Below, piece after piece: positions 3,835-60,829 of a DNA stretch of 61,035 nucleotides (position 1 is its first letter; each line of letters starts with the position of its first letter). The notes below the pieces were generated by a model, which searched no databases, was not told where the DNA came from, and worked only from the letters and a program-made list of their open reading frames with translations. The translations under genes were made by a program, and so were the position numbers. This DNA is from a virus, in IMG/VR virus record IMGVR_UViG_3300017729_000002, positions 1 to 61,035 of that record, one strand, 5' to 3'.

Positions 3835-3857
3835 CCACGTGATACCGTATCACGTGG
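3835..3857 (+). repeat. Palindromic element copy 4 (core 3839-3853)
   Basis: CCACGTGATAC (3835-3845), one C, then its exact reverse complement (3847-3857). It lies 17 nt after the VWA stop. This is the last copy I found; none precedes the smaller genes downstream, so the element marks the three-gene module. Confidence 0.9.
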
Positions 3858-25075: not shown

Positions 25076-25081
25076 TAAAGA

Positions 25082-25110
25082 TTGAATACATTGTAAATAC
25101 CAAGTATACT
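25082..25110 (+). promoter_or_regulatory. Promoter for a probably leaderless terS-like mRNA
   Basis: TTGAAT (25082-25087), a 17-nt spacer and TATACT (25105-25110). The predicted start is at 25117 or 25118, and the ATG begins at 25118, so the mRNA would have essentially no 5' leader. Confidence 0.55.
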
Positions 25111-25117
25111 CCAACCC

Positions 25118-29262: not shown

Positions 29263-29913
29263 ATGCCAAAAGCAAAAGAAGAAGAAATTGAAGCAGCAAC
29301 AACCACAGCTGTCACTACCGTCGGACAAGAACTTACTATCGATGCCGACGATATCGATATCCCACGACTTAACGTCGTGCAGAAAATGTCCACTGGGGAC
29401 TTTGATCACGGAAGTCTTATCCTAGATAAGACCCACGAGATCTTACCTCGGGAGACTAAAGGACATTGCATCATCCTCGGTGCAATTAAGAAATGGAAAG
29501 AGGACATCGACTTCGACTCGGATGAGATGCCTCGGATCGTAGGAACAAAGCAAGAGATGGAACAGCTTAAGATAGATTCAGAATATCAAATTCTAGAATT
29601 TGCCGAGCTAATTCTTATGTTTGCCCAACCAGAAGGTAATACGGATGATGATGCGTTCCCCTTCCCAATTGGTGACAACAACTACTGTATCGGAAAGATC
29701 TACGTCCAGAAGGATGCATATCGTAAGACCTATAAAAGCCTTATGACGTTTGCTGCTTTCAACCGTGGGCTACCTCTGAACAGCCGTCTATGGAACTTTG
29801 AGTCTCAGATCATGAGCAAGGGTAAATACTCATGGTATGTCCCGACCCTCAGTGTGACTAAAGAGCACGTCCCAGAAGCAGTTGCAGACTTCGCAAACTC
29901 ATTCCAAGCATAG
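29263..29913 (+). CDS. Possible ssDNA-binding or recombination protein
   Basis: 216 residues from the ATG at 29263 (MPKAKEEEIEAA); an upstream extension overlaps the nuclease gene and is rejected. The N-terminus is acidic, followed by DIDIPRLNVVQKMS and a beta-rich body. Proteins with this opening are often encoded beside RecB-like nucleases and family A polymerases in phages. A role in binding single-stranded DNA is inferred from context, not from a motif. Confidence 0.55.
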   Translation: MPKAKEEEIEAATTTAVTTVGQELTIDADDIDIPRLNVVQKMSTGDFDHGSLILDKTHEILPRETKGHCIILGAIKKWKEDIDFDSDEMPRIVGTKQEMEQLKIDSEYQILEFAELILMFAQPEGNTDDDAFPFPIGDNNYCIGKIYVQKDAYRKTYKSLMTFAAFNRGLPLNSRLWNFESQIMSKGKYSWYVPTLSVTKEHVPEAVADFANSFQA

Positions 29914-29917
29914 TTGT

Positions 29918-30100
29918 ATGAGTTCCCATTTAGACGTGATCTCTGAGGAGATTGCAACCGCCAATAAAATGCTCTCAGATCTCGATGACAACATCAAAAC
30001 TCTGCAAGAACATTACGCTCGCACGGTCGTTATCATTGACGCCTTCGAGAAAGCCAAAGGGCTCTTTGATATCCAAGAAGAGCTTTCACTAGAGGAGTAA
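29918..30100 (+). CDS. Small helical protein before the polymerase
   Basis: 60 residues, starting MSSHLDVISEEIATANKML; nearly all predicted helix with a heptad-like pattern, so probably a coiled coil. It begins 4 nt after the previous stop. A strong hairpin separates it from the polymerase gene. Function unknown. Confidence 0.5.
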   Translation: MSSHLDVISEEIATANKMLSDLDDNIKTLQEHYARTVVIIDAFEKAKGLFDIQEELSLEE

Positions 30101-30124
30101 TCCCTAGTTTAATATACATGACCC

Positions 30125-30158
30125 ACCCACACCCCTATGACGTCATGGGGGTGTGGGT
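30125..30158 (+). other. 34-nt near-perfect dyad upstream of the polymerase gene
   Basis: A 17-nt arm beginning ACCCACACCCC (30125-30141) is followed at once by its reverse complement (30142-30158), with one T:G mismatch; the centre is ATGACGTCAT. It lies 24 nt after one stop and 40 nt before the polymerase ATG. There is no poly-T, so it may be a processing or regulatory hairpin, or a protein-binding dyad, rather than a simple terminator. Confidence 0.8.
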
Positions 30159-30198
30159 AAATTTATGCCAAATTACAATCACGGCACACACCAAAAAT

Positions 30199-31986
30199 AT
30201 GAATAATAAAATTACTTACGCGTTAGATTTTGAGACATTTTACAGCAACGACTGTAGTATCAGAACACTCGGCCCCTTGGGCTACTTCTCACACCACGAA
30301 TTTGATGCCTATATGGTCTCGGTTGTCGGCGATGATGGATACGAATTTGTTGGTCACCCCAAAGACTTCGATTGGGATATGCTAATTGACAATGTTGTCC
30401 TCGCCCACAATGCATCTTTTGATGAAACACTTTACAAGTATGGGACCACACAAGGCTGGTGGCCCGATGTCAAATACTCCGCATGGCACTGCACAGCAGA
30501 TCTTGCGGCTTATGTTGGTATACCAAGGAACCTCGCTGGTGCTTCAGAATATGCACTCGGAGTTAAGCCAGACAAGTCCACCCGAGACAACATGAAAGGA
30601 AAGCTCTGGGAAAACATGACACCAGAGTTTCAGGCGGAGGTCTCCGAATATGCATTAGTAGACTCACGTCTCTGCCTACAGCTGTGGCAGAAAATAGGTG
30701 ACGAGTGGCCAGAGCACGAAAGAGAAATCAGCCGTGTCAATAGGGAGGCTCTACAACGTGGCATACCCATTGATCAAGAAGAGCTCAAGATGGCACAAGA
30801 ACGTGTTAAGCAATACTTGTTTGATGCGGAGGCTAACATACCATGGCTTGGTGAGAAGCCGACCCTATCGAGAAAAGCCTTCAATGAAGAATGTCGGAAG
30901 ATGGGCATAGAGCCACCAGCCTCTCTAGCAAAAACAGACATTAAGGCACAGGAATGGATTAAGGAGCATGGGCAGAAGTATAAGTGGATTCAGGCGGTAT
31001 CTGAGTGGCGTAGGATCAACTCCTTACTTAAGAAGTTGGAAGCTATTGATTGTGCCACGATGCCAGACGGTCGCTATTACGGAAACATAATGTATTTTGG
31101 GGCACACACTGGTCGCTTCTCAGGGGGTGGCGGTAACTTTAACCTACAGAACCTGCCCCGAAAAGAAATGTTCGGGGCCGATCTACGCAAACTAATCTGT
31201 GCCCCTGAAGGCAAGAAGCTAGTCGTAGTTGACTTGTCTCAGATTGAGGTGCGGACGCTACTGTGGTTAGCAGAGGATTGGGACATGCTTAAAACTGTTG
31301 AACAGTCTGATGACATCTACGAGGCATTTGCCATAGAATTTGACATGTGGGATCCAGCTAAAGGATCTCTCAGGGTTGAGGACCCAGACACAAGAAACTT
31401 AGTAAAAGCAATTGTATTGGGCGCTGGGTTTATGGCAGGTCCGAAAGCCTTCGCAGCAGCATATGGTTACAGTGAGGAAGATTCACAATCCGCAATTGAC
31501 CTCTACCGAGCCAAGATGAAAAAAGTTGTTAAGTTATGGGACACCCTCAAGGAAAACCTAAATGGGTATCACCAGCTGGATGACAGAAACTGTGAACGAA
31601 AAGACCATGCGGAAGACTTGCCCCTCAGGCAAATTAAGTATGGTAAGCCCAAGCTAGTCAAAGGTAGGTTTGGGTATCCAGAGAACATCACTCAGATTAT
31701 TAAGCACTCGCGCCGAGTTGATGTCAGGATCTGGCAGGGTTTGATAACTGAGAACTTAGCACAGGGTTTAGCCCGCGACATATTTGCTGGCATGATGGTG
31801 GCACTTGATAAGGCTGGATATAAACTCCTGTTCCACGTTCACGATGAAGTTATTTTAGAGGTTGATGACGAAAATGCTTCCGAGGCTTTGAGCGATGTGG
31901 TAAGAATAATGTCGGAGCCGCCACCGTGGATACCAAACATCCCACTGTCCGCTGAGGGTTCTGTCCTGAAACACTACGAGAAATAA
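30199..31986 (+). CDS. polA: Family A DNA polymerase
   Basis: 595 residues from the ATG at 30199; a longer frame would run through the dyad and is rejected. The N-terminus is a 3'-5' exonuclease: DFET at D10, and YALVDSRLCLQLW later. Polymerase motif A is VVDLSQIEVR (D345), motif B R399-xxx-K403-xxx-L407-xxx-F411, motif C HDE at 548-550. No 5'-3' exonuclease domain is present, as in T7-like phage polymerases. The position equivalent to E. coli Phe762 is Leu, and that equivalent to Tyr766 is Phe. It is the replicative polymerase, working with the primase-helicase encoded 4 nt downstream. Confidence 0.93.
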   Translation: MNNKITYALDFETFYSNDCSIRTLGPLGYFSHHEFDAYMVSVVGDDGYEFVGHPKDFDWDMLIDNVVLAHNASFDETLYKYGTTQGWWPDVKYSAWHCTADLAAYVGIPRNLAGASEYALGVKPDKSTRDNMKGKLWENMTPEFQAEVSEYALVDSRLCLQLWQKIGDEWPEHEREISRVNREALQRGIPIDQEELKMAQERVKQYLFDAEANIPWLGEKPTLSRKAFNEECRKMGIEPPASLAKTDIKAQEWIKEHGQKYKWIQAVSEWRRINSLLKKLEAIDCATMPDGRYYGNIMYFGAHTGRFSGGGGNFNLQNLPRKEMFGADLRKLICAPEGKKLVVVDLSQIEVRTLLWLAEDWDMLKTVEQSDDIYEAFAIEFDMWDPAKGSLRVEDPDTRNLVKAIVLGAGFMAGPKAFAAAYGYSEEDSQSAIDLYRAKMKKVVKLWDTLKENLNGYHQLDDRNCERKDHAEDLPLRQIKYGKPKLVKGRFGYPENITQIIKHSRRVDVRIWQGLITENLAQGLARDIFAGMMVALDKAGYKLLFHVHDEVILEVDDENASEALSDVVRIMSEPPPWIPNIPLSAEGSVLKHYEK

Positions 31987-31990
31987 GACC

Positions 31991-34168
31991 ATGAAATATT
32001 TTTACATTGAGAATCTAAGAAGTTCCGACATCACCATTGTCAAAGATTTGTCCAAGACAAAATCAAAAGTCCCCCACCACAAAACCAAATCGGATCACCG
32101 TAAGTGGTCAGCTGAGCCGTCCACCAAGCATGTCTTTTACAATACCGTAGAAGCGGATTCTCCACGGGAGCGTGTCGGAGTTGATAACCCACCCCGCTTG
32201 ATCTATGGTGTCGTAGGTGACTATGATGCAGCGGTAGACTGGAGCGCAATTGAAGATGTCCTAGAAAAGGCGGCATACACACCGACATGGATTTCACAAA
32301 CACACAGTGGGTACATGCGTCTAGTATGGGAGTTTGAATCACCTGTCCCTACGTCTGATGAAATGTTCCCAGCGTTCATGAAACAGATAGCGCGAATCCT
32401 GACACTGCAAAAGCTACATGCAGGTTTTGATAGCACGTCCATGAAGTCGTCCCAGTATTTTGACTTGGGGACAAACTGGAAGCAGATTGGGGTTTCCCTA
32501 CCTAAGTCTGTGACACAAACCGCAGCTATCAAAGCAGCGTCCGCACAAGCCCCCCGATCTGGTGATGTGGTTATCCCAATCGACGTCGTTGCGGCTGAGG
32601 TAGAAAGCAGATTCCCAGCTAGGTGGACCAACCCATTTGAAGTTGGGCAACGTGGACCCCTGTTCTGGATCAATGATGGCATTGAGAGGGATGGTTGTCA
32701 GGTTGTTGAAGATGGTATTGTCTGTTATTCCGACCGTGCAGGTAAAGGGTTTGTTACATGGGCTGAGATCTTTGGACGTAAATTCGTGCAAGATTATGAG
32801 CAAGAAAAAGTAGGTAGCTTGCTTGACGACTATTGGTATAACGGTAAGAGCTACTACAAGATGAGCTATGGACAAGCAGTCAGCATCAATGAGGCGCAGG
32901 TAATGCGTGAGCTCAAGAAGGCTGGTTTCTCTCAGAAGCCCAGCAAAGGCAAAAACACTTCGGAGATTGACGAGGCTATTCTAGCCATCTGCAACGTGAA
33001 CCGAGTAAATGATATAGCCCCTGTCATCTTCTCCACAGATCGAATCGTGGAGTTTAACTCAAATCGTATTCTCAATACGGCTTGCCTGTGCCCCACGCAA
33101 GCGGACAGTGATGGTGACATTAGTAAGTGGCCTTTTATACACGAGTGGCTACACCAGTTGTTTGCCAATAGTGCTGATCAGCGGCCTACGGTAGAATACT
33201 TTTTTGCTTGGCTACAGCGGTTCTATATTGCCGTGATGAACCACCAGCTAACTCAAGGGCAAGCTCTATTGTTAGTGGGTCCTACCAACAAAGGGAAGTC
33301 TCTGTTGTCAAACAAAGTTATCGCTGCATTAGTCGGCGGCTTCTCTGATGCGAGTGAATACCTCAGTGGCATCAGTCAGTTCAACAAGGACCTAGCTCGA
33401 GTTGCAGCATGGGTGGTAGACGATACCACTTCGGCTGCTTCGTTCCAAGACCAGCTAAAAGCCACCGAGCTTATCAAGCGTGCTGTAGCCAACCCTCGTA
33501 TGGAATACATGGCTAAGTATGCGGATGCTATGTCTGTGCCTTGGACTGGTCGAGTTATTATGTCCCTTAACGAAGACGCTAATAGCCTGTCGGTTATTCC
33601 AGCCCTCGATTCTTCTAACCGTGACAAGATTATGGCACTGAGAATATCAGACAAGGCGACGAGTAGCTTCCCGCCAAACCACGTCTTGGAAGATATAATC
33701 GAGCAGGAACTACCACACTTCGCTCGATGGTTACTAGACCACCAACCACATGAGGATATTATGGACGGTCCCGCTAGGTTTGGTGTAGTTAGCTTTATTG
33801 ACGAGAAGATCGCTGAGGCTGCCTACGACAACTCAAGCCGCAGTAGTGTGGCTGAGCTAGTTGACTGGTTTGCCAAACAGGCAAGGAACTACACGGATGA
33901 CATTGAGTGGCGTGGGACACTGACTGAGTTCCTTATCTCTACGATGGGTTTCAATGAGGGACGCGCAGTCGGTCGGAGTAACAACCCCGAGTTCGTTCGA
34001 CGTGGGATGTGCACGATGGAGGAAACTACCAAGTCCAACACCAGCGTCAGACCTGTAAGGTCAGAGGGGCGCGGTGGTGGAAAGATATGGGTTATCAATC
34101 TCGAAGAGAGATTCGATATCGAGAAAGTGGGTCAGACAGTTCCTACATCAAGTTTGGCACAGACATAG
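31991..34168 (+). CDS. Primase-helicase (AEP PrimPol plus SF3/D5-like helicase)
   Basis: 725 residues. Near residue 77 there is G-D77-Y-D79 within LIYGVVGDYDA, the paired acids of an archaeo-eukaryotic primase active site; FDSTSMKSSQYFDLG follows near 150. The second half has Walker A GPTNKGKS at 430-437, WVVDDT near 474 as Walker B, and MSLNED near 520. This combination is known from NrS-1-like PrimPol/DUF5906-type phage proteins that unwind and prime DNA. The last 26 bases overlap the convergent minus-strand gene at 34143. Confidence 0.82.
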   Translation: MKYFYIENLRSSDITIVKDLSKTKSKVPHHKTKSDHRKWSAEPSTKHVFYNTVEADSPRERVGVDNPPRLIYGVVGDYDAAVDWSAIEDVLEKAAYTPTWISQTHSGYMRLVWEFESPVPTSDEMFPAFMKQIARILTLQKLHAGFDSTSMKSSQYFDLGTNWKQIGVSLPKSVTQTAAIKAASAQAPRSGDVVIPIDVVAAEVESRFPARWTNPFEVGQRGPLFWINDGIERDGCQVVEDGIVCYSDRAGKGFVTWAEIFGRKFVQDYEQEKVGSLLDDYWYNGKSYYKMSYGQAVSINEAQVMRELKKAGFSQKPSKGKNTSEIDEAILAICNVNRVNDIAPVIFSTDRIVEFNSNRILNTACLCPTQADSDGDISKWPFIHEWLHQLFANSADQRPTVEYFFAWLQRFYIAVMNHQLTQGQALLLVGPTNKGKSLLSNKVIAALVGGFSDASEYLSGISQFNKDLARVAAWVVDDTTSAASFQDQLKATELIKRAVANPRMEYMAKYADAMSVPWTGRVIMSLNEDANSLSVIPALDSSNRDKIMALRISDKATSSFPPNHVLEDIIEQELPHFARWLLDHQPHEDIMDGPARFGVVSFIDEKIAEAAYDNSSRSSVAELVDWFAKQARNYTDDIEWRGTLTEFLISTMGFNEGRAVGRSNNPEFVRRGMCTMEETTKSNTSVRPVRSEGRGGGKIWVINLEERFDIEKVGQTVPTSSLAQT

Positions 34169-35178: not shown

Positions 35179-36081
35179 TCAAGGTTGTTGTGACTCGTAG
35201 TTATAAAAGTTAAAGGAACCAGAGGGTGGTAAGCCAGTAGCAGTCCATGTGGTTTGTGTTCGTTCGCCTGCAAAAAAATCGGCATCCCTGCCCTGCCAGT
35301 AGGCTGCAACAAATGGAAACCCGTCTATGGACACGGTGGTTACGTTATCAGGTTGCGCTTGTCTTTCGCGCCTGTTGCCGTAGAACGGTCCGAACTCAGC
35401 CCACCAGTTCGGATAAGGAAATAATCCACCGTCACTTTCCCAATCTCCGTCTTCTGCGAAGTTGCCATATGCAACCCCATTAGCATCAACACCTTCAACA
35501 CCACTATGCATCTGGAGGGCTCCGATGGGGAATCCGTAACCAATATGGTTTGCTTCGTCGTCAACGTCCCCATCATACATCTTAACAAACGGTCCAAAAT
35601 TTACTGAAGCGAATACATCACCTGGATATGTAAATGAGTGTATTTCTCTTGAGGATTCAGCTGGGCCACAAGCTGCTCTCTGTCGAGGCTCAACCTCCTC
35701 CTCTGAATACCTCAAATATTGGAAGTAATCGTCGCCACGTTCTTCAGAGTGAATGGTAGATAACTTAAAGGGCTCCACACCCCATCCTTCTTCCCCATCA
35801 GGATACGCGACATCCGTAAAGATGAGCTCATAAGTTGTTTCTTCCGCTTCGCTTCCATCAGGATACACGGCCTCTGCGGGAATTAAAACAACTTGGAGTT
35901 TAAGTATGTCTTCTGTAATTTCAACGGAAGCCAAGTTAAAAACCAAAGCAGAGGCTTGCTCTAGCGTCATGGGTTCAACATATGCGTAATTAGAGACATC
36001 CATATTCTCAATGCAGAAGGGTAAATTCTGCTGTAAGAATGATTCGGTCGGGTCAGTTATTTCTGGGACAGCGTCATCCAT
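35179..36081 (-). CDS. Structural protein, tail region
   Basis: 300 residues, acidic, beta-rich, with many aromatic and Gly residues and no known motif (for example YPNWWAEFGPFYGNRRERQ near residue 220). It ends 3 nt before the start region of the neighbouring tail gene and shares its style. Likely a tail or fibre component; not recognised. Confidence 0.5.
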   Translation of the reverse strand: MDDAVPEITDPTESFLQQNLPFCIENMDVSNYAYVEPMTLEQASALVFNLASVEITEDILKLQVVLIPAEAVYPDGSEAEETTYELIFTDVAYPDGEEGWGVEPFKLSTIHSEERGDDYFQYLRYSEEEVEPRQRAACGPAESSREIHSFTYPGDVFASVNFGPFVKMYDGDVDDEANHIGYGFPIGALQMHSGVEGVDANGVAYGNFAEDGDWESDGGLFPYPNWWAEFGPFYGNRRERQAQPDNVTTVSIDGFPFVAAYWQGRDADFFAGERTQTTWTATGLPPSGSFNFYNYESQQP

Positions 36082-36084
36082 ATC

Positions 36085-36699
36085 TTAAAGGGGGATAAAG
36101 GCTGGCAATGCAACACCCCTGAAGCAGGAATCATTAATGACCATGTTGCTCCTTACCAACTGCGTGACTATGTATCGGTCTGCGGGTGTCGGATCGTCTG
36201 GTAAGTCTGGGTTGTTCCGTATTAGAGCAATTGGGGTCTTAGAGTGGGTGAGGTCTTTTATATTATTTGGGTCAGCAAAAGCATCTTCAGGCAGATACCT
36301 TTTCCATACCTCCGTCTCCCCATCGTCTCTTGATGCCACTTCAAATGTTACATTTTTATCCTCAATCCCATACTGAAAATATATCACTGACTCTCCTGTA
36401 ATGTCTATTCCCAGAGCGGCTAACTCAATATTTACATATTTTCCTTTTGTCACTCCTTCGTTCGTGACTCCATCCTCGGTGACAAGGGAGAGATGTGAAG
36501 GGTCATAAATCAATGTCCCTGTAGTTGATAGCACCCACTTCGGTCTTCCTGTCTCAGGAAAATCTGGGTCATTGATAATGGTTATTTTCCATGGGTGTAC
36601 ATCACCACTACCACCACTAAACCTTGATGGTGGGAAGTCAACTAGTGGGTCCGTTTGGTAGTAATTCGTGGGTCCTCCGCTGTAATCAGGATAGGGCAT
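36085..36699 (-). CDS. Structural protein, tail region
   Basis: 204 residues, beta-rich, Pro- and Asp-rich, no membrane segment. The opening PYPDYSGGPTNYYQTDP suggests an extended N-terminus that may dock on another virion protein. It lies 3 nt from the downstream gene and 4 nt from the 1,272-residue repeat protein upstream. Function unknown. Confidence 0.5.
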   Translation of the reverse strand: MPYPDYSGGPTNYYQTDPLVDFPPSRFSGGSGDVHPWKITIINDPDFPETGRPKWVLSTTGTLIYDPSHLSLVTEDGVTNEGVTKGKYVNIELAALGIDITGESVIYFQYGIEDKNVTFEVASRDDGETEVWKRYLPEDAFADPNNIKDLTHSKTPIALIRNNPDLPDDPTPADRYIVTQLVRSNMVINDSCFRGVALPAFIPL

Positions 36700-36703
36700 T
36701 GTA

Positions 36704-39700
36704 TTAAACTGGTGGGTAACACGTTATTGTTTTCTGGAGGAAACCTCCTTGGAAGGGGGACACCTCGTCTGAGATTACAACATTAACCCAATTAGTTTGC
36801 TCGGTGGCTGGTATTGTCTCATTCCACACTAGGTATTCCCACTGGTCACTTGTAGTACCAGTAGTACCTGAAAACGTCTGTGCGGTGTGTAAACATGGTG
36901 GGATACTTACCCTAAACAAAGGGCACGAAAAGAAAACAGGGGTCGTCTTCAGGAAGGGTCCTACCGATGATTGTCCTGTTGGGGCTTCTTTAGACCATGT
37001 CTCAGTCACGCTAGCGCGGCAGGGCCCACTATATTCTTCCTGTATGTATGTCGGGAAATATGAGAAAACGTCGGTGCCATCTCTCTGGGACCATTTTTGG
37101 GGCGTTAGTCCCCCTAGCACGGCTGGCCATTTTTTGTTGACGGTGCTCTCATACGTAACTGCGGGCTCTGGAGTAAATACCGTCCTGTCAATTCTGTATA
37201 TGACATCGGTCGCATTATTATACACCGCTGTATTTCTTACTTCCTCAGTAGGCGCTGGAGTTGAGTTGGGGGTCTTATCATATTTAGTGAATGTTTCACG
37301 AGTGAAATATGGGTTAGTCTCCTTAGATGACGTGAACTCTGCGGTGTCTGGAACAGGGGTTTCTTCGTCAATTTGGAACACCTGAATCGAAGCTCCCGTA
37401 ACCTCACCCCTATAAACTGCTCTGATGCGGTTTATCTTATTTGGATCTTCAGCGACACCTGTCTGATTAAAGTAAGTTTTAACTTCCAGATGTCCCCAAT
37501 CAACGGATGATATAACGGTGTAGGTATAAGTCTCGTTAGGGTCTATCTCTGTAACTTCATCAACTTGGTATACTTCGGTGGTGCCATCATTATACACCAA
37601 CCTAGAATTACCCGTGCTGGTTAATGCTCCGCTAGTGGCAAACTTAGACGTAGTGGTAATCGTGGCATATATAGTAGACTCTTTGGTCTCCCCATTCTCC
37701 GCTGCTTTGAATACAAGATCTTCTACATCGACTTGGTAAATGATTGTCCCACCACCCCGATACACTACCCTTGATCTACCAATGTTTCCAGTGACGCTAG
37801 AGCTCTGGCTATATGTACTAGTTGTCGTCAGCGTGCCATATAAACGGGCTTCTTTAGTCTGACCAGCATCTTTATTAGAGGCTACTGTTGTAGTCTCATT
37901 GTCAACTTGGTAGATAACAATCCCACCTCCGCGGTAAGCCACACGTGAACTTCCTGTAGCGGATGAGATATTGCCAGAGGTTGCATATGTGCTTGTTGTA
38001 GTGATGTCGGCGAATATAGTCTGCTGTTTAGTCTGTCCAGCGTCTGTGTTAGTGGGTAACTGAGCGACCTCATTATCAATCTGGTAAAGGATAACACCAC
38101 CACCTCGGTAAACTACTCGAGAGCTACCCGTGTCACCAGTGACATCACCAGACTGGGCATATGTGCTAGTTGTGGTGATCTTGGCAGCAGCTGTTTTTTG
38201 TATTGTCTCACCAGCGTCAGTATTAGTAGTGATCGTTGTCGTCTCTTCATCTACTTGGTAGATCACAACACCACCACCGCGGTAAGCTACACGTGAGCTA
38301 CCAGTGTCTGTGTTGATCGTAGGAGAAAGTCTGAACTCACTTGCAGTAGATATATCGGCGAAGACAGTCTGCTGTTTGGTCTCACCAGCGTCTGTGTCGG
38401 CAGGTAACTCAGCGACCTCGTTATCTATTTGATAAATAGTTACTCCGCCGCCGCGGTAAACGACCCGAGAGCTACCAGTGTCCCCTGTGACATCACCATT
38501 CTGGGAGAAAATACTGCTAGTGGTGATAATTGCCGACGCGGTCTTCTGTATAGTTTGACCCGCGTCCGCATCTTCTTTGGCTACTACAGACTCCTCACTG
38601 ACTTCATATACCTGCGTCGTACCATCATCATAGATAACCCGACTAGATCCTGTTTCAGTGAGAACGTCTCCACTGGTGCGATAAAACTTATTCGTAGTTA
38701 TGGACGCGTAGATCTGCTCATTCTTCTCCTGACCTGCGGAGCCTTCTTTAATGGTGAAGGTGTCTTCGTCGCGTTGATAAATTTGTAAGGTGCCATCATC
38801 AAACACAATACGACTACGGGTGTTGTTCTGCCCTACAATGGGCTCGGTTCCCGCGGATGTGTTGGTCGTTATCTTACCATATGGTCTGGTCTCAACTTGT
38901 GATTCGTATTCAAATCCAGTGAGCTCGGCGCTACGCTGCTTCCTCTGCCACCCACGCTCATCAAATGATACTGTGTAATTACCCTCTCCGTCCTTGTCAT
39001 CCTCTAGGGTGGAGGTTTCGATAATCTTATACCCGATGTTATACTGGTGTTCCTCTTGAAAGGCCCAGCCTTTCTTAGCATAAATGTCCAAGACTACACT
39101 GAAATAGCTGTCTATCTCAGGTGGGGTCTCCTGAGATATACGTCGTGTAGCATATTCATATTGACCATACTTAGAATCTGGAGTTCCTACTGCTGGTCTT
39201 GGGAACGCACCTACCTGACTACGAGGTACGATCCATGTTCGTGTTACCGTAAGCCCTCCTTCTTGTAGGCTTAGGTTACCATCCTGAGCCGCTGGGTCGG
39301 GAGTCTTAGCGTAGACATGCTCCTCAGATACATACAAAGATGAAAGGGTATCATCTTCGATAGGTCTCTGAGCTCTGTCCACAAGGAGGTATTCACCTGT
39401 GAACTTGCCACTAGGGTCTGATGGCATAGATGCACCGACCTCTGGGCTAGTGGGGTTATAGTCTTCCCGTAGTGTGACGTAACTGCGGCGTACCAATGAT
39501 ATACGTACACCTCCAATGTCTACAAATGATTCGGAGAAGTTATACTGGTCTTCGTTGAATCTATCTCGAGCGTAGTAATATTTATAGAAGTCTCCTATAT
39601 TATCATTCGGGACTGCTGCTACAAACTTGTGATCTGTAAATTCACCGTGGGCCTCCCCAAATTCTGGGAGTGGTGATGGCTCCAACTTTTCATTTTTACG

Positions 39701-46445: not shown

Positions 46446-49400
46446 TTAGAGTTTTGTGACAACTAGCTGACCCGACTGAACAAGGAAATTGCTAGTACCT
46501 CCCGCGTCAACGCTTTGGAAAACGGCCACTGCTGATGTTGGGCTTGTTGCGGCAATCTCAATAATACCACTTACTGTGGCACTGCCAACGGCTCCATTGT
46601 TTGGCATAGCCCTGTCGGCCACAAACCCCGTGCCTGACCAGCTTGTGCCATCGTAGTGATAAATCTCGAACTGGTATTCGCCAGCAGTGTCGGTCGTGCA
46701 GCAGATATTCGCTTCGACTCTGTAAGTACCCGCAGTCGGTATTGAGATAGCGTTGGCTGTTGTGCTTGGTGTAGTTCCAGTAGACGAGCCAACAGAAACC
46801 CAATCCACTATCGCTGGGGTAGTGTTGCATACCGTATTTGTGGCGTTCGCATTGTTATAAAGCACGCCGTAAGTAGCACCACTTAATTGTTCAATCTTGT
46901 CGTAAACTGCATTCTTTGAAGGGGCCGTGGTGTCACCGTCCCAGCTAATTCCATAAGTGGTGTCGTCTGCTCCCGCAAGATGGGTGTCGTTACCAGCATC
47001 ATCTGTAAACCAAAGCTCGTTTGGTGTTGCGTTTTTAACCCAGATTTGGCCGCGACCTGCTATATCGGCCAAGGCGCTTGCTCGCTCATCAATGAACAAG
47101 GGAGCAGAGATGTGCATTCCGTTAGCCACTCGGAAGTTGGCTGTCTTTTCTTGCGTGATGGTGTAGTCAGCGGCGGTGGTGTCGGCGAAGGCAAATACCC
47201 CGTCCAACCTACCTAGTGGCACACCAGTAGCCTTGACTCGGGTTCCAGCGATAACACAATTTGAACCATAACTGATGTTGTTATTGTTACCACCCAGTAT
47301 AATAGAGCTATCTGCATAATTTCCAGAGTTGGTCTGGCCTGCAAGAATAGCACAGTATCCTCCACCACCCATCCCCCCATCAAGAGTGTGTCCCTGACCA
47401 CCAATAATTGCGCTGTTGTAAGAGGACATTGTGGGAATAGAGGCATTACCCGAATGTGCTAGGATAACACTGTTCCCATAGCTATTAGCCATACTAGAAT
47501 TAGTAGATGCAATAATTGCGGCGTTCGGTGTGGCTGAAGCAAGAGTATTACCAGTTCCAGCAGTAATAAAGCCATGAGTGCCTGCCGCGCTATTGAAGCT
47601 ACCACCGATAAGTGCAGAGTGGGTACCAGCTGCAACATCATCAGCGTTACCCTGCATCTGAAGATCTACCGAATAGTTGCCTCGGGCATCAGGTGTGGAG
47701 CTTCTTGCTACCGCAGAGATATCATAAGTTGAGCTTGAACCTTGGGTCGTGCCACCAGTCGCTGCGTCTTGCCACGCCAGCCCTGTTGCGTAGCCCGATG
47801 CCGTTGTAAGAACTTTACCATCTTGAGGGAACGCCGTTAATTTGGCAGCTGTGTTATTACCCGTTCCGACAATAAGATCACCCTTAGCATCAAAGGCTGT
47901 GTCAGTCGTGATATCCCAACCAAGTGTTTCAATCTTATCGTAGATCGCATTCTTAGTGGCAGCGTCTTGGTTTCCGTTCCACCCAACCCCATACGCAAGG
48001 TCGGATGCTGCTCCTCCCGCTGGGGCGAGCTTGATGACGGATCCATCGTATGTTAAGACTTGCCCGCTTTTACCAGATAGATTCTCATTACTCTGGAACA
48101 CATAGTTATCTAATTCAATGCTTGCTGCTCCAAAATTTCCCGATGCTGAGGAGAGTTTTAAATTACTTCGATAAAAACCACTACCTGTGTTATCAACGAC
48201 ACTTATCGTCGTTGGGTTTTGAGCGCCGTAGCCTGATGAGGTCCCTGATCGGATATCTAGACTGAACTCATCCAAGGTTGAACTAGTAAAAGATAAGAAG
48301 GGTGCGTTTGACTTCCGTATTTCAAAGTTTCCCACATCTAAATTACCGCCTAATTCGGGGCTCGTGTCCTCTACTATGTCTACCAAGCCACCAGAAGGGG
48401 CGGCCCACTTAAGACCAGTGGCTTCAGCAGCATCGGTCGTTAAAACTAAATCATCGGTGACAGGCGCAGGTAGTATTGAAGCGGCTCCTGCCCCAGTTGC
48501 AGCAATTAAGTCGCCTTTAGTGGCCCATGAGGCATCGGTGGTGATGTCGCTTGTGATGACTATCCAATCAGCTGAGTCGGATAGGACTCCCGATGATTTA
48601 GCTATTAAAACATCACCAACCGCAAAGGTTATGTCTGGGTCTGTTACGAAGTTGTATGTTCCTGCTGCGGTGACGTAGTAAATGTCACCTACAGTGGAAG
48701 TAATTACATTCAGGTTTGGGGAACCGAGTCCACCCGATGCAGTTGGATCAAAATCTCCTTTGTATGAAACTTGGTCTGATGATAACCCATTCAATTTTGA
48801 AGCCAGCGCATCTGTGAAAGCGTTGGTATCTGCCTCAGCTTCGTAAGCCACTTTGATCTCTGCTCCTGTCTGGTCAGCTGTCGCAGCGGTTTCTATGCCT
48901 GTCAGTTTTGTTTGCTCAGCATCCGTGAAAGCGTTGGTGTCTGCCTCAGCTTCGTAAGCCACTTTGATCTCTGCGCCTGTCTGGTCAGCTGTCGCAGCGG
49001 TTTCGATGCCTGTCAGTTTTGTTTGCTCAGCATCTGTGAAGGCGTTGGTGTCTGCATTGGACTCGTATTTTGTCTTAACGGTTCCCGCGTCTAACCCACT
49101 CCCGACTATGGTCCAGTCACTTTCCGTGGATGCACTGTCAACCTCTGCAATTATGGTTGTCCCAAGTAATAATGTTTGACTATAAAAACTACCCTCTGTC
49201 TCGACGACATAGGTGTCTCCTGCGGAAATTGCGATCGCTGATGGTGATGTTAAGTCAGGTGTGTTAGTCGAAGCATTGTAAGCTCCTTTGAAACTTGATG
49301 CGCTTAGAAGGATCTCATTATCGACATAGGATTTAACACTAGCTTGTGTTGGGACTTTTGTCTGTGAGTTGCTCACCAAGGTGGCTTCGTTTAATACAAA

Positions 49401-50126
49401 TGAGGCTCCGCTAATATCTGCATCCGTGGTTTTTACAATGACATTACCATCGGTAATATTGGCAAGGGTGTGGGTGTGGGCTGCTTGAGCAAAATCGGTG
49501 GTGTCGGCTGCAGCTGCGGTGCCACTGTCAGATATGTCAGAAAGGGTGTGAGTGTGGCTTGCTTGAGCAAAGTCGGTGGTATCGGATGCAGCGGCGGTGC
49601 CGCTGTCAGATATGTCAGAAAGGGTGTGAGCATGGACTGCGCCAGCAAAGTCGGTGGTATCGGATGCAGCTGCGGTGCCGCTGTCGGATATGTCAGAAAG
49701 GGTGTGGGTGTGTGCCGTCGGGTCACGGTCATCTGATAAACGAGTGTCATTGCCTTTAACAACTTCGGCAGCTGCGGCATTACCTACTGTAGCTACATCA
49801 AGACCAGCGGCACTCCCAGAATCCGTAATCTGAGATAGTGTGTGGCTATGTGTGGTTGGTGTTCTCGCATCACTAAGGCGGGAATCCGTGGTATCAATAA
49901 GGGTAGCATCAGAGATCTGAGAGTTGACTGAAGACAAGGTCCCAGCTTGGATGGAGTTGCTAGCGAGTGTTCCTTGGGATGCGGTCGCAAAGTCGGCTGA
50001 GGCGGAGGCAGCTGCTGTGCCTGCATCAGTAATATCAGCTAAGACATGTGTGTGAACAACATCTGCTTTTCCTTCTAAGGAGCCTGAGACCCCTGTTAAC
50101 TTGATAACTTTAATTGGGTTGGCCAT
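46446..50126 (-). CDS. Long tail fibre (1,226 residues)
   Basis: From the N-terminus: a short docking region; several 20-25-residue repeats HTHTLSDISDSGTAAASDTT (residues about 90-230); repeats with DTNAFTDAEQTKLTGIETAA (about 350-440); paired YGxxWxGxxxAxxKNAxYDKIE segments (near 735 and 1070); a low-complexity beta-helix (GGSFNSAAGTHGFITAGTGN and on) at about 850-1000; and a C-terminal jelly roll (YRVEANICCTTDTAGEYQFEIYHYDG). The C-terminal domain probably binds the host receptor. The repeats also recur at DNA level. Confidence 0.85.
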   Translation of the reverse strand: MANPIKVIKLTGVSGSLEGKADVVHTHVLADITDAGTAAASASADFATASQGTLASNSIQAGTLSSVNSQISDATLIDTTDSRLSDARTPTTHSHTLSQITDSGSAAGLDVATVGNAAAAEVVKGNDTRLSDDRDPTAHTHTLSDISDSGTAAASDTTDFAGAVHAHTLSDISDSGTAAASDTTDFAQASHTHTLSDISDSGTAAAADTTDFAQAAHTHTLANITDGNVIVKTTDADISGASFVLNEATLVSNSQTKVPTQASVKSYVDNEILLSASSFKGAYNASTNTPDLTSPSAIAISAGDTYVVETEGSFYSQTLLLGTTIIAEVDSASTESDWTIVGSGLDAGTVKTKYESNADTNAFTDAEQTKLTGIETAATADQTGAEIKVAYEAEADTNAFTDAEQTKLTGIETAATADQTGAEIKVAYEAEADTNAFTDALASKLNGLSSDQVSYKGDFDPTASGGLGSPNLNVITSTVGDIYYVTAAGTYNFVTDPDITFAVGDVLIAKSSGVLSDSADWIVITSDITTDASWATKGDLIAATGAGAASILPAPVTDDLVLTTDAAEATGLKWAAPSGGLVDIVEDTSPELGGNLDVGNFEIRKSNAPFLSFTSSTLDEFSLDIRSGTSSGYGAQNPTTISVVDNTGSGFYRSNLKLSSASGNFGAASIELDNYVFQSNENLSGKSGQVLTYDGSVIKLAPAGGAASDLAYGVGWNGNQDAATKNAIYDKIETLGWDITTDTAFDAKGDLIVGTGNNTAAKLTAFPQDGKVLTTASGYATGLAWQDAATGGTTQGSSSTYDISAVARSSTPDARGNYSVDLQMQGNADDVAAGTHSALIGGSFNSAAGTHGFITAGTGNTLASATPNAAIIASTNSSMANSYGNSVILAHSGNASIPTMSSYNSAIIGGQGHTLDGGMGGGGYCAILAGQTNSGNYADSSIILGGNNNNISYGSNCVIAGTRVKATGVPLGRLDGVFAFADTTAADYTITQEKTANFRVANGMHISAPLFIDERASALADIAGRGQIWVKNATPNELWFTDDAGNDTHLAGADDTTYGISWDGDTTAPSKNAVYDKIEQLSGATYGVLYNNANATNTVCNTTPAIVDWVSVGSSTGTTPSTTANAISIPTAGTYRVEANICCTTDTAGEYQFEIYHYDGTSWSGTGFVADRAMPNNGAVGSATVSGIIEIAATSPTSAVAVFQSVDAGGTSNFLVQSGQLVVTKL

Positions 50127-54678: not shown

Positions 54679-56955
54679 TTATGACCTAGCGTCTTCTTGG
54701 AACTTCATGGCGGCTTCAGCGTCGCGGATGGCTTGATCCTGCTCGTGCTTTTGTTGCTTGATGGCCATCTCGAGCTCAGCCTTCTGCTGCATAATCTGCA
54801 TCTGGACTTGGGCTGCCTCCATCTTTGGATCTGGTGCTTGTTGTTCACCGCCCTGCTGCTGTTGCATCATGGCTTCTTCCTCAGTCATCTGCTGCTGGGC
54901 TTGGGCTGCATCACGTTCTTCTTTCTGCATTGCCTTGGCGGTGTTGTTAATCATTTCTTCACCATACTGTAGAGCCTGCTTAGCCTGTGCGACTAGTCCC
55001 TCAAGTGCAGGTTCCGCAGATGCGAACTGTGTATGCTCGGCAACGTGCTGATACATGGACTGAAGCACTGGCATTGACTGCATTGGGTCGGCTTGTCCTG
55101 TGTTTAATGCTTCAATTAGCTGTCCAAAGACCTGTAAGTGGATAGGTAAGTGGGTTCCATGTAGCTCAGATGACAATACTGGGATAGGTTCACCCTTAGA
55201 AATGTGTCCATTCTCGATGATCGCCATCTTATTGTCCACTGTTTCACGTGGAACATCTACTTGTGGGGCATATCTATCAGCAATATCGGCTCCAACACGG
55301 GTAGCTACGATGTCACGTGTGAGGTTTGCACGCCCAACTTCGTCAAATGAGCCACTAATTGCGTTCAATTCACGTAAGGAAGCCAGTCTGTTAGCCCTAG
55401 ATCCGTCTCCGATAGCTCTAACTGCTGTAGTTCTGGCTGTATCGAGGCTGTTAATGAACTCTTTTGGTACGCCACGAGCCTCACAACGCTTGAAAAAGTC
55501 TGAAATGCGCTTGTCTTTAGGTGATTTGATGATGCGTTTGACCACTTGACGGAGTAATCTACCCCAAGATGCGTAGAATAAGTTCAATGCAGCACCACTT
55601 AACTGGGTGCTAATGTCCATATCGCTAACAACTTGATCCTTATTCCTGTATGGTGAACTCTGATTCGGGCCATATGGGGACTGTGTGTCCGTATTCATGG
55701 CCAATTGGTTCTGCATATCCGATAAAGCGGGCTGCACAGCCTGAGATAAGTTAGGAATTGCCTTCTCAATGATGTTCACATTGGGTGAAAGCACGGCATA
55801 TGAGCCATAAAATGTCATATCGAGCTCCTCAAGAGCGCGACTTGACTCAGGTTGCAGCATTACGGCGGAGCTAATCATGGCTCCGTCGATCATTTGGCAA
55901 CGTAGTCTGTTAGATGTTTGAATGTGAGAGAAGATTCTCTGCCCTAATCCGCGGATCGAGTGGTATGTGCCGTTAGATCCGACGCCATATGTAAACATCA
56001 CGTATGCTTCTTCAGCAGACTTGTAGCGTGATGGCTTCTCATAGAGAAATTCTTTGGGGCTAGACTCGGCGCATGAGTAATGAGACAGGCTCCCGTCAAC
56101 TTCACGGACAAGATAATGCAGAACCGATACGGTGGGGTTCTCTACGCCAATATATAAGTCGTTATTCTTGAGCTCGGCCTGTAAAGCCTCGTAATTACCA
56201 TCAACAGAACCACCTGAGAACGACCCACGCCCCGTGGTGGTCACATTCTTAGTCATGACGCGCTTTACCTCGGCGACATTCCAACCAACTTTAGCAGCTG
56301 CTTCAGGGTCTTTAATAAAATTGTTTAACTCATGGAGGTGATAGCTGCGACGAATGACTGACACGTCGATGGCTTCCTCTGTTGCGGGGGTCTGACGAGG
56401 GATTAGAATGTCCTCAAAGGATCCTACCCTAAACTGCCAGCCTTCAGGGGAGTCAAAGTATGCTACGCCGACACCGTGCTTAATAAATGTTGTGCAAAGT
56501 CGAAGGTAGTTACTGTGAAACTCGGGCCACGACTTTAGTAGCTGAGTAATCTCTGAGCTAACTATGTCTTCCCACTCATGGCGTTGGGCGTCTTCACCGA
56601 GTGTGCCTTTAACATTAACGAACTTCTCCAATGAGGAGTATAGGTCTACGTAAGCTGACAAAGAGATATCAAGCAAACGCTGAGATTCTCCGAAGTTTAA
56701 GTTTGTTTTCTGACCTTGTCCAGAGGCGTTGAGCTTAGCTTGCGAGTATGGGGCTGAGCCATCAAACATGCCGTCGATTCGGGCACGCTGCAATGCTGAC
56801 TGTTTGTCTGCATCCTTGAGGCGGTTGTATACTGCTAAAGCGGACGTTACATCTTTGAGTCTGCGTGCTTTGGTTCCGTCTTCCTTAACCCCCATCGTGA
56901 GCCCTAGCTCATCTATTACGTCTAGGGATTTGGGTTGCTTTGTTTTGTCAGCCAT
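54679..56955 (-). CDS. Portal protein
   Basis: 758 residues. The size, position before scaffold and capsid, and long helices fit a podovirus-type portal. Conserved-looking parts include LNFGESQRLLDISLSAYVDLYSSLE near 90, FRVGSFEDILIPR near 180, and SSPYRNKDQVVSDMDISTQLSGAALNLFYASWGRLLRQV near 440. The C-terminal 100 residues form a Gln/Met/Ala-rich coiled coil (EEERDAAQAQQQMTEEEAMMQ) that may extend as a barrel into the head. No ATP-binding motif. Confidence 0.8.
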   Translation of the reverse strand: MADKTKQPKSLDVIDELGLTMGVKEDGTKARRLKDVTSALAVYNRLKDADKQSALQRARIDGMFDGSAPYSQAKLNASGQGQKTNLNFGESQRLLDISLSAYVDLYSSLEKFVNVKGTLGEDAQRHEWEDIVSSEITQLLKSWPEFHSNYLRLCTTFIKHGVGVAYFDSPEGWQFRVGSFEDILIPRQTPATEEAIDVSVIRRSYHLHELNNFIKDPEAAAKVGWNVAEVKRVMTKNVTTTGRGSFSGGSVDGNYEALQAELKNNDLYIGVENPTVSVLHYLVREVDGSLSHYSCAESSPKEFLYEKPSRYKSAEEAYVMFTYGVGSNGTYHSIRGLGQRIFSHIQTSNRLRCQMIDGAMISSAVMLQPESSRALEELDMTFYGSYAVLSPNVNIIEKAIPNLSQAVQPALSDMQNQLAMNTDTQSPYGPNQSSPYRNKDQVVSDMDISTQLSGAALNLFYASWGRLLRQVVKRIIKSPKDKRISDFFKRCEARGVPKEFINSLDTARTTAVRAIGDGSRANRLASLRELNAISGSFDEVGRANLTRDIVATRVGADIADRYAPQVDVPRETVDNKMAIIENGHISKGEPIPVLSSELHGTHLPIHLQVFGQLIEALNTGQADPMQSMPVLQSMYQHVAEHTQFASAEPALEGLVAQAKQALQYGEEMINNTAKAMQKEERDAAQAQQQMTEEEAMMQQQQGGEQQAPDPKMEAAQVQMQIMQQKAELEMAIKQQKHEQDQAIRDAEAAMKFQEDARS

Positions 56956-57701: not shown

Positions 57702-58042
57702 TAGTCTTTTGGGTATGGTTCAGCTAGACCTTCGTCCAGCAATAGTTGATTCATGCTTACTCCATCTAAATATATTGTCCCGAGCCAACGGCCATATTTG
57801 CCTGACTTGTCTCTGTAGGATTCTAAGGTCACCTCCCTACCACTAATCAGGTTCCTGAGTCGGGCTGCTGCTACTAGCCCAGCGGCTCGCTCGTCTCCTC
57901 GTATCTCGGGGGTGTTGATACCGATAAGTCTAATCTTCTGATTCCTCATCCACATGTTGAACCCTAAGTCGATGTCTAGGGTCACGGAGTCGCCGTCGTA
58001 TACACTAGTGCATCGTGCGTTGTATGTATATTGTGTATTCAT
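57701..58042 (-). CDS. Staphylococcal nuclease-like (thermonuclease) protein
   Basis: 113 residues from ATG 58042, in ATGA overlap with the HNH gene. It has the SNase motifs: D-G-D-S in VYDGDSVTLDIDLG, R-L-I-G-I-N-T-P-E-I-R at about 42-52, and DKSGKYGRWLGTIYLDG near 80. The catalytic Asp, Arg and Glu positions are kept. Calcium-dependent cleavage of DNA and RNA is the family activity. No signal peptide, so it acts in the cytoplasm or is virion-borne. Confidence 0.82.
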   Translation of the reverse strand: MNTQYTYNARCTSVYDGDSVTLDIDLGFNMWMRNQKIRLIGINTPEIRGDERAAGLVAAARLRNLISGREVTLESYRDKSGKYGRWLGTIYLDGVSMNQLLLDEGLAEPYPKD

Positions 58043-58662
58043 TTTTTGTGTATTTTTTTGTGGCAAGGGATGCAAACCCCCATTAGCTCAAACATAAACT
58101 CGTCTCCAACATGATCATACGTCAGGTGATGTGCTTGTTGAGACTTTGCCTTTAAACACGCCTGACACAGTGGGTCACGCTTTAGTATTTTCTTACGCTT
58201 CTTAGCCCATTTTTTGGATTTTAAATACTCATTATACCACTCCCACCAGTCTGATTTTTCTCTTTCTTGGTCAGCAGCAGCTAGACTATAGCGGATCTCT
58301 GCTATCCTGTTACTCGCTGCCGCTGCTTTGCTCATTAATGTTTTTGTAGATAAAACATCTTCAAGCAGAGGCCAATCGTTATCCCATTCCAATCTTCGGA
58401 TGTCTTTCCCCTGACCTTTCTGGCCACAACCAAGACAAATGGGTACTACATTACTGTCACCAAATTTGTGGGTGTTGTAGCGGTTTTTAATTGTACCAAC
58501 AATTATCTCACCCATCGGAAGATCCCATTTGTTGGTGCCGACGCAATAGCAGAGCCTATTGCGGCCATATGGTTTATCATTACGCTCGCGTATAAGATAC
58601 TCAACGTCTGCGTTTGCCGCGTCTACTAATTTTATCGCTTCGTCTAGTGTTATTGTATTCAT
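58039..58662 (-). CDS. HNH endonuclease
   Basis: 207 residues. The C-terminal third has the HNH signature: CQACLKAKSQQAHHLTYDHVG, then MGVCIPCHKKIHKK, with paired Cys residues for zinc. Before it is a helical basic region YLKSKKWAKKRKKILKRDPL. The first half has further Cys pairs (IPICLGCGQKG) that may form a second zinc site. It is encoded next to the packaging genes; HNH enzymes here are often terminase-associated, or are homing endonucleases. Confidence 0.78.
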   Translation of the reverse strand: MNTITLDEAIKLVDAANADVEYLIRERNDKPYGRNRLCYCVGTNKWDLPMGEIIVGTIKNRYNTHKFGDSNVVPICLGCGQKGQGKDIRRLEWDNDWPLLEDVLSTKTLMSKAAAASNRIAEIRYSLAAADQEREKSDWWEWYNEYLKSKKWAKKRKKILKRDPLCQACLKAKSQQAHHLTYDHVGDEFMFELMGVCIPCHKKIHKK

Positions 58663-59198
58663 GATTTCATCTCTATGAGTTGTTGCATCCGTTCTTCCTG
58701 CATCTCTTTAAGCTGCTTGCGGCTGTAGGTGCGCGGTCGAAAAGATACGTCCCTTAGGTTAACGCGTTCAATGGGGCATCGGCCACTGGTCTCGTCTAAG
58801 TAATACTTTACCTCGCGGAAATATATACCTTGAGCGTCTTCAGTCTGATGGTAAACATTACCGCCGTGGTCTACTAAGTATAAACACCACAAGTCAGGTA
58901 TCTCTATAAACTGGGAACCTATCTCACGCGGTCTTCGCGGTAGCCACTCGTGGTCCTCTCCAGCTGCTATCAGCGCCTCCCTGCGTAGTGCTTGCGGGTT
59001 TCGACTTCTCCTCTTCCCATCGTCAAAAGTAATTTGCACTCGGAGTTCTTTCCAGTTTCTACCTTTACGAGAGGTGAGCGTGGTCTTAATTGGTTTGCGT
59101 GAGCCGCTCTTTAACAAGCGGTATACCTTGCCGTTGGAGGCAATCTGATACTTCGAGGCGTTTGGTATGGGGTAAAACTGTAGTGTGTCTTTACTCAT
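58659..59198 (-). CDS. NUMOD4-like protein
   Basis: 179 residues. The opening FYPIPNASKYQIASNGKVYRL matches the NUMOD4 module found in homing endonucleases, here without an attached nuclease domain; a second, weaker copy may be IEIPDLWCLYLVDHGGNVYH. It lies just before the HNH gene, so the two may act as a split homing-type pair. A sigma70-like promoter abuts the ATG. Function inferred. Confidence 0.6.
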   Translation of the reverse strand: MSKDTLQFYPIPNASKYQIASNGKVYRLLKSGSRKPIKTTLTSRKGRNWKELRVQITFDDGKRRSRNPQALRREALIAAGEDHEWLPRRPREIGSQFIEIPDLWCLYLVDHGGNVYHQTEDAQGIYFREVKYYLDETSGRCPIERVNLRDVSFRPRTYSRKQLKEMQEERMQQLIEMKS

Positions 59199-59204
59199 GT
59201 GGGT

Positions 59205-59232
59205 ATCCTACTAAAAACAGAGGGGGTGTCAA
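59205..59232 (-). promoter_or_regulatory. Promoter abutting the NUMOD4-like gene (leaderless)
   Basis: On the minus strand TTGACA (59232-59227), a 16-nt spacer, TAGGAT (59210-59205), then six bases and the ATG at 59198. The predicted start falls on the A of the ATG. The -35 is part of the direct repeat GATTGACACCCCCTCT. Confidence 0.55.
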
Positions 59233-59298
59233 TCCGTTTTTAACTCCAATTTTGTGCTCGGGGCTGTAGCCTATATTCTATATAGCCTAGCGGCTAAT

Positions 59299-59415
59299 AG
59301 AGATGACCACAACAACCCCTCTTCTTTTAGAAAGTTTTTATTCACTTTCTCCTTCTTAGAGGGAGAATATAGAAAAAAACTTTCTAAAAGAAAGGGGGTT
59401 GTTGTGGTCATCTCT
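59299..59415 (-). repeat. Long inverted repeat, 41-nt arms
   Basis: Arm 1 is 59299-59339 and arm 2 59375-59415; they are complementary over 41 nt with two mismatches. The 35-nt loop itself can form a TTCTCC/GGGAGAA stem. Directly repeated sequence lies on both sides. It could be a structured RNA, a strong terminator, a replication or packaging site, or the remnant of a small element. Confidence 0.85.
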
Positions 59416-59539
59416 CTTTTTATTTAGCCCTTACCCTATATAGCCCACAGGCCCATAGAGGGGGTGTCAATCAGTAAAAACACACCTTAAAATAAACGCA
59501 AACTACTTGCATTAAGGATCTAATGTATTCACTTTGTAG

Positions 59540-60205: not shown

Positions 60206-60606
60206 GACTTTTTGTTGTAAGGGCTAATTGGTGCTTCGCCTCGGTCTTCGAGTGTGCGTTGCAATAGTGCTAATGCCCGCCACGCAACTTTCGCTGCATG
60301 TAGAATACCATCATCATCGAGCTGGTCATACTGCATCAGGTGTCTGACTAGGCAGTCCGACTCATCGGTAGACTTCTCCCTCGCCCAATGGAGCGGTTCA
60401 CCTGCGTTGTGTTGGTCGTTTCCTGTCTTACTACACTTAGCTACCAGCCACAGTGCATCTGGGAAGTAGTTAAGCACTCCACTAAATATAGGCGCTTGCT
60501 TCCGTTCGTAACCCTTGTTAAAGCCTCCTTCGTCCTGTAGATAAGGCTTCGAGTCGCCTTCACCGACCCCTATACTGGACCATCCTTTCTTTTGTTTATC
60601 GCTCAT
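60202..60606 (-). CDS. dATP/dGTP diphosphohydrolase N-terminal domain-like protein
   Basis: 134 residues. It matches the DUF5664-type family: LNYFPDALWLVAKCSKTGNDQ, PLHWAREKSTDE, CLVRHLMQYDQLDDDGILHA and AKVAWRALALLQ. The His and Asp residues in RHLMQYDQLDDDGILH suggest a metal site. It may hydrolyse nucleoside triphosphates or adjust the dNTP pool during replication. It overlaps the neighbouring small basic gene by 11 nt. Confidence 0.68.
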   Translation of the reverse strand: MSDKQKKGWSSIGVGEGDSKPYLQDEGGFNKGYERKQAPIFSGVLNYFPDALWLVAKCSKTGNDQHNAGEPLHWAREKSTDESDCLVRHLMQYDQLDDDGILHAAKVAWRALALLQRTLEDRGEAPISPYNKKS

Positions 60607-60829
60607 TGTTCTTTTTAGCTTTGCGTTTTAGGTAGTATTCATGCTGGTACTTCTTCTGTTTAGATACGTAATCGGGGTCCTTAAGTCTTTTCTCAGCTCT
60701 CTCTTGTAGGATTATTTCCCTTTTAGCATAATATCGCTCTTTGGCATACCTCAATCTAGCGCGTCTATTCTTCTGGTAGTACAGCCGCTTCTTCTTGAGG
60801 GTCGCTTCTGGTGTTTTCTTATCGGGCAT
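60596..60829 (-). CDS. Small very basic protein
   Basis: 77 residues, about 40% Lys and Arg with many Tyr (LYYQKNRRARLRYAKERYYAK), all helical; probably binds nucleic acid. It is the first gene of the right-hand minus-strand operon and sits directly on a promoter, so its mRNA may be leaderless. Function unknown. Confidence 0.6.
   Translation of the reverse strand: MPDKKTPEATLKKKRLYYQKNRRARLRYAKERYYAKREIILQERAEKRLKDPDYVSKQKKYQHEYYLKRKAKKNNER

Follow-up and report, generated by a model that had tools for sequence, protein, structure and literature searches.

A conserved hairpin element at a single locus beside a NUMOD4-like gene in uncultured phages, with a putative role as a DNA control site

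The stretch analysed here, called the window, is a contig of 61,035 bases from an uncultured virus (IMG/VR record IMGVR_UViG_3300017729_000002), and all of the data are metagenomic contigs. The window contains a long hairpin, or dyad, at 59296-59418, recognised by inverted-repeat search, folding and compensatory changes in relatives and assigned to the minus strand, which is the coding strand at this point. This hairpin is shown to be an enlarged member of a family-wide structured cis-acting element, present at a single locus and tied to a gene for a NUMOD4-like protein. It is tentatively taken to act as a control site at the level of DNA, most likely as a putative origin of phage DNA replication. 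No description of the element was found in the literature, and Rfam 15 gave no match at the gathering score for the window or for 15 relative loci. A covarying element at a fixed place beside the gene of a putative DNA-binding protein, in phages that have no cultured members, provides a defined site for tests of replication or transcription control.

The inverted repeat has two arms of 41 nucleotides (nt) each, at 59299-59339 and 59375-59415, with 39 paired positions and a loop of 35 nt, exactly the arm pair with two mismatches described in the first-pass annotation. The loop (59340-59374) is itself partly paired, giving the extended dyad of 59296-59418 with 61-nt arms (85%). It scores 35, no other local inverted repeat of the 61 kb reaches 16, and its region is the most stable 120-nt stretch of the window. 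The z-scores of RNA folding were -10.2 and -9.1 for the two strands, and none of 200 shuffles folded equally well. The earlier view of a structured element is confirmed; the listing of a replication or other cis-acting site among its possible roles is also judged right, with function still a proposal.

The two closest relatives (contigs L003/L043 and L004/L044), whose portal protein is 88% identical to that of the window, keep the hairpin at the same place. Among the 41 hairpin pairs compared in this clade, four have changed on both sides with pairing retained; the covariation score was reached by one of 500 shuffles and was lost when the register was slid. More distant relatives were represented by 94 further loci, in which the DNA preceding the portal gene was scanned. 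The pattern sought combined an A-tract with a short outer stem, an inner inverted repeat and, at a spacing of 64-79 nt, a T-tract; 470 control stretches set the threshold at their 99th percentile. A structured element exceeded this threshold in 57 of the 94 loci (1% of controls), a count that is approximate because a few picks differ from the element seen by eye (L018, L022 and L024, for example) and a few contigs are near-duplicates. Clear hairpins in L006, L008, L015 and L033 were missed by the strict definition of the scan.

Across this family the AT-rich element measures about 66-79 nt. It begins with an A-tract and ends with a T-tract, and between them are a short stem and a variable inner stem that covaries. 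It is found as a single copy per genome, or as a tandem pair, in the region separating the early genes, which run leftward, from the structural operon, which runs rightward, and the portal gene lies 0.5-1.1 kb downstream of it. The NUMOD4-like gene starts no more than 420 nt beyond it in 59 of 60 loci, a linkage that arises partly by construction, as only the stretch before the portal gene was searched. As a separate observation, another repeated palindrome, GTTAACAACTCAGTTGTTAAC, is found upstream of the hairpin region in related phages (contigs L017 and L041; G004 35287-35394 and 36484-36610, G006 29713-31458), and is possibly a lineage-specific operator.

Pairing in the distant relatives was analysed clade by clade, since a joint alignment of all lineages, whose inner stems do not align, gave no consensus fold; the first model was sequence-only. 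Twelve sequences of one clade aligned without gaps into 13 outer pairs, an internal loop of 7+7 nt, 14 inner pairs and a 6-nt loop. Double-sided changes occur at eight of the inner pairs, and 30 double-changed cells were counted, against 11.7 in shuffles, none of 500 reaching that number and slid registers giving at most 9. Covarying pairs of the kind expected of a structured RNA are thus present; DNA-level templating could also produce covariation. A covariance model, R2, was built from this distant-relative clade alone, without the window, and searched over seven whole contigs (419 kb). It matched the window hairpin at 59311-59404 on the minus strand (28.3 bits, E = 0.004, rough calibration) and on the opposite strand at 59329-59384 (E = 0.038), and matched the orthologue of this hairpin with E = 0.01. 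Besides these two hairpins and their opposite strands, nothing was found at E < 1 in the seven contigs, and in many other lineages R2 finds the element at the expected place. As the calibration is rough, these matches are supportive rather than conclusive, and the argument for homology is carried by position and linkage.

Two tandem copies of the element are present in eight contigs (L119, L149, L153, L157, L161, L164, L173 and L203). Six of the eight share the same 119-nt period with related but diverged spacers, which indicates that the tandem duplication is old. The inner stem-loops of the two copies are 0.91-1.0 identical within a genome, against a mean of 0.76 between genomes, and identity is not higher between copies at corresponding positions of different genomes. 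The copies, and perhaps the arms, have therefore been homogenised or selected to stay alike, and for this reason covariation alone is no proof of selection on pairing. That tandem copies evolve in concert in this way is unusual, and it would bear on the maintenance of palindromes in phage genomes.

The stem mismatches, the AT-richness and the single locus lean towards a function at the level of DNA. The mean guanine-plus-cytosine (GC) content is 27% in the elements and 46% in their loci, with an extreme of 24% in a locus of 56% GC. The window element has 35% GC against 48%, so that the GC-rich stem of an intrinsic terminator is not found in it, and GC content is high in this genome's other stable hairpins. 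Mismatches within the stems show no excess of G.U over A.C (16:21, p = 0.51; 31:24 by a looser count). In the mechanism proposed, the AT-rich dyad would either open or form extruded hairpins and would be recognised by a phage protein. Its most likely role would be that of a replication origin for the phage DNA, and the NUMOD4-like gene would be driven by the promoter next to it. Candidates for the recognising protein are the NUMOD4-like protein itself and a DUF5906 primase-helicase, or phage primase-type protein, encoded at 31991-34168 and identified by domain and family searches. In L005, L011, L012 and L031 both flanks of the dyad carry clusters of iteron-like ACCGCTCAGAGATT repeats, and flank repeats exceed the controls in a minority of lineages.

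One of the closest comparisons for such a site is the iteron-type origin of phages, satellites and plasmids, as found in phage P4, in Staphylococcus aureus pathogenicity islands (SaPI) and in phage-inducible chromosomal island-like elements (PLE). Common to both are an AT-rich block with repeats and inverted repeats, flanking direct repeats spaced by about 20 bp (in four lineages here), and a DUF5906/phage primase-type protein, which this phage encodes. In PLE, the repeats bound by RepA themselves include inverted sub-repeats (PMC7145576). The present element differs in that its core is a hairpin-forming dyad of free sequence, most lineages have no clear iterons, and the initiator is only a candidate. 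Baculovirus homologous region (hr) elements, which have been proposed as both origins and enhancers, are likewise AT-rich imperfect palindromes that are sometimes repeated; they belong, however, to another kind of virus and occupy several loci per genome rather than one.

Several points weigh against a replication origin or other DNA-level site. Clear iteron clusters are confined to the four lineages named above, and the window has only one 16-nt pair. GC and AT skew, computed for seven contigs, gave no consistent origin signal and are confounded by gene direction. Template switching or gene conversion between arms or copies could yield the covariation without structural selection. In genomes of the L080/L090 type the element exactly fills the gap from the stop codon of the upstream gene to the ATG of the NUMOD4-like gene; in this clade it is probably transcribed, lying as it does between co-directional genes, and this intercistronic place, together with the A- and T-tracts of the relatives, fits an RNA hairpin.

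An RNA hairpin in the leader of the late transcript or between its cistrons, acting as a terminator or attenuator, as an RNase III processing site or as a 5'-end stabiliser, is accordingly a possible explanation. It would account for the succession, read in the late direction, of A-tract, stem and T-tract in relatives, for the exact stop-to-ATG fit and for the covarying inner stems, and by eye a TTGAC-type promoter lies just before or overlaps the 5' arm in L006, L008, L033 and L020. Against it stand the AT-rich stems in a genome whose other hairpins are GC-rich, the restriction to one locus per genome, G.U mismatches no more frequent than A.C, and the lack of any Rfam match. The window hairpin also has no T-tract directly after the stem on the late strand, as a terminator should, where many relatives have one: past the stem this strand reads TCATCTCTATTAGCC, and a T-rich tail is present only on the opposite strand. 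Two known systems are comparable. The intercistronic RNase III hairpins of phage T7 resemble the element in having two stems with an internal loop, about 70 nt in length, between co-directional genes (in one clade here), but the present element is found at a single locus, is AT-rich and has mismatches without strand bias, and the arm pair of the window is an almost unbroken 41 bp. Intrinsic terminators, including the antitermination-controlled tR' of phage lambda, share with many of the relatives an A-tract, stem and T-tract ahead of structural genes; the AU-rich stem, the absence of a T-tract from the late strand of the window and the one locus per genome set the element apart.

The flanks of the window hairpin contain duplicated promoter segments, as stated in the first-pass annotation. 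GATTGACACCCCCTCT occurs exactly twice, at 59219-59234 and 59457-59472, one copy on each side of the hairpin and both on the minus strand. A second, imperfect direct repeat of 36 nt was found by repeat search, its promoter-side copy at 59267-59302 being 75% identical to the outer copy at 59425-59460. The inner copy of GATTGACACCCCCTCT provides the -35 of a predicted sigma-70-like promoter (59205-59234, minus strand), which the promoter scan gave as TTGACA-16-TAGGAT with 10 of 12 positions matching and the -10 at 59210-59205; this -10 is TAGTAT in both close relatives. It ends 6 nt ahead of the ATG at 59198, so that a leaderless transcript is predicted for the next gene. The outer copy has its TTGACA at 59470-59465, and the same scan confirmed that no -10 lies at normal spacing from it. 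In L003 and L004 the outer -35 segment is present in diverged form (GATTGACAACCCCTCT), and the duplication therefore predates the three genomes.

This promoter and the gene that follows raise the further explanation of an operator, in which the dyad is bound by a double-NUMOD4-like regulator controlling its own promoter and the structural operon. The gene (58659-59198, minus strand) encodes a protein of 179 amino acids with two NUMOD4-like repeats, whose homologues occupy the corresponding position in relatives (E = 8e-12 by hhalign against the family alignment). Most members of this protein family match HNH-endonuclease families in PHROGs, and no HNH motif was seen by eye in the window protein. 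NUMOD4 modules of HNH endonucleases bind DNA. Points in favour of an operator are these matches in a protein without the nuclease motif, the strict linkage of element and gene, and the strong predicted promoter between them in the window clade. An operator is nevertheless rather unlikely: the perfect stems of 14 to 28 nt of free sequence exceed what a dimeric operator needs, the linkage is in part a product of the search, and a sigma-70 promoter downstream of the element, significant in the window clade, has no general significance across the family. Also unlikely is a hairpin DNA switch or origin in which a dyad of free sequence but conserved structure, its arms and tandem copies held alike through templated repair, is read by a regulator or initiator that was domesticated from a homing endonuclease, with its double NUMOD4 and no HNH.

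A pac-type packaging recognition site beside the portal gene is improbable. The element does lie near the portal gene and an HNH gene, and the scatter of contig ends agrees with headful packaging of circularly permuted genomes. In the contig, however, the gene for the terminase large subunit (23297-25114) and its neighbour are both more than 30 kb from the hairpin, and contig ends show no clear clustering there. A fixed DNA end finds no support in these scattered ends, and a fixed genome end (cos or direct terminal repeat) or telomere hairpin was rejected because the ends of about 40 contigs of at least 50 kb are dispersed round the genome.

A mobile mini-element or recent insertion between the duplicated promoter segments, which the first-pass annotation had raised as a possibility, is very improbable: two direct copies do flank the hairpin, but they flank it also, diverged, in L003 and L004, and both of these close relatives carry the hairpin at the same locus, where a related element lies across the family. 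A miniature inverted-repeat transposable element is rejected on the same grounds, with one locus per genome, syntenic in both close relatives and across the family. Promoters of the virion RNA polymerase of phage N4 were considered as well, being DNA hairpins near transcription start regions in a genome that also encodes a giant protein. N4 promoter hairpins are short, with 3-nt loops, and the giant protein of 4390 amino acids encoded here gave no RNA polymerase match in Pfam or PHROGs, although a very remote one is possible. This protein is a single open reading frame (7393-20565, minus strand) in which only DUF7178 and PHROGs of unknown function are recognised.

On the minus strand the hairpin is followed by the 179-residue gene, an HNH endonuclease gene next in the operon (58039-58662, minus strand; phrog_589, E = 5.9e-8), genes for a Staphylococcal-nuclease-like protein and for small proteins, and lastly large genes whose size and order suggest putative portal, scaffold and capsid genes. 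No family library matched the candidates for portal and capsid, so that the putative portal protein (758 amino acids; 54679-56955, minus strand), the anchor for finding relatives, is named from its size and its place by the putative scaffold and capsid genes. Upstream of the hairpin lies a gene for a basic protein of 77 amino acids (60596-60829, minus strand), and in one clade a gene so placed has its end exactly at the first base of the element. A cultured relative was not found, as tblastn against 50,697 phage records gave no match to the portal, terminase or NUMOD4-like protein. A host search against genome contigs matched two metagenome bins only, and these matches are not trusted.

Other repeats are found elsewhere in the window. 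The palindrome GTGATACCGTATCAC occurs four times (76-90, 1099-1113, 2335-2349 and 3839-3853), near starts or ends of plus-strand genes, a copy number reached in none of 100 shuffles, and is operator- or terminator-like. Coding repeats of 12 bp (CCCGAG / GGTGATGACCAA) at 2910-3053 form an acidic repeat tract in a VWA/metallopeptidase-like gene. In the structural block, a gene for a protein of 1274 amino acids contains four tandem repeats of 174 nt (37818-38571), and further repeats lie at 48791-49712 inside a gene for a protein of 1226 amino acids.
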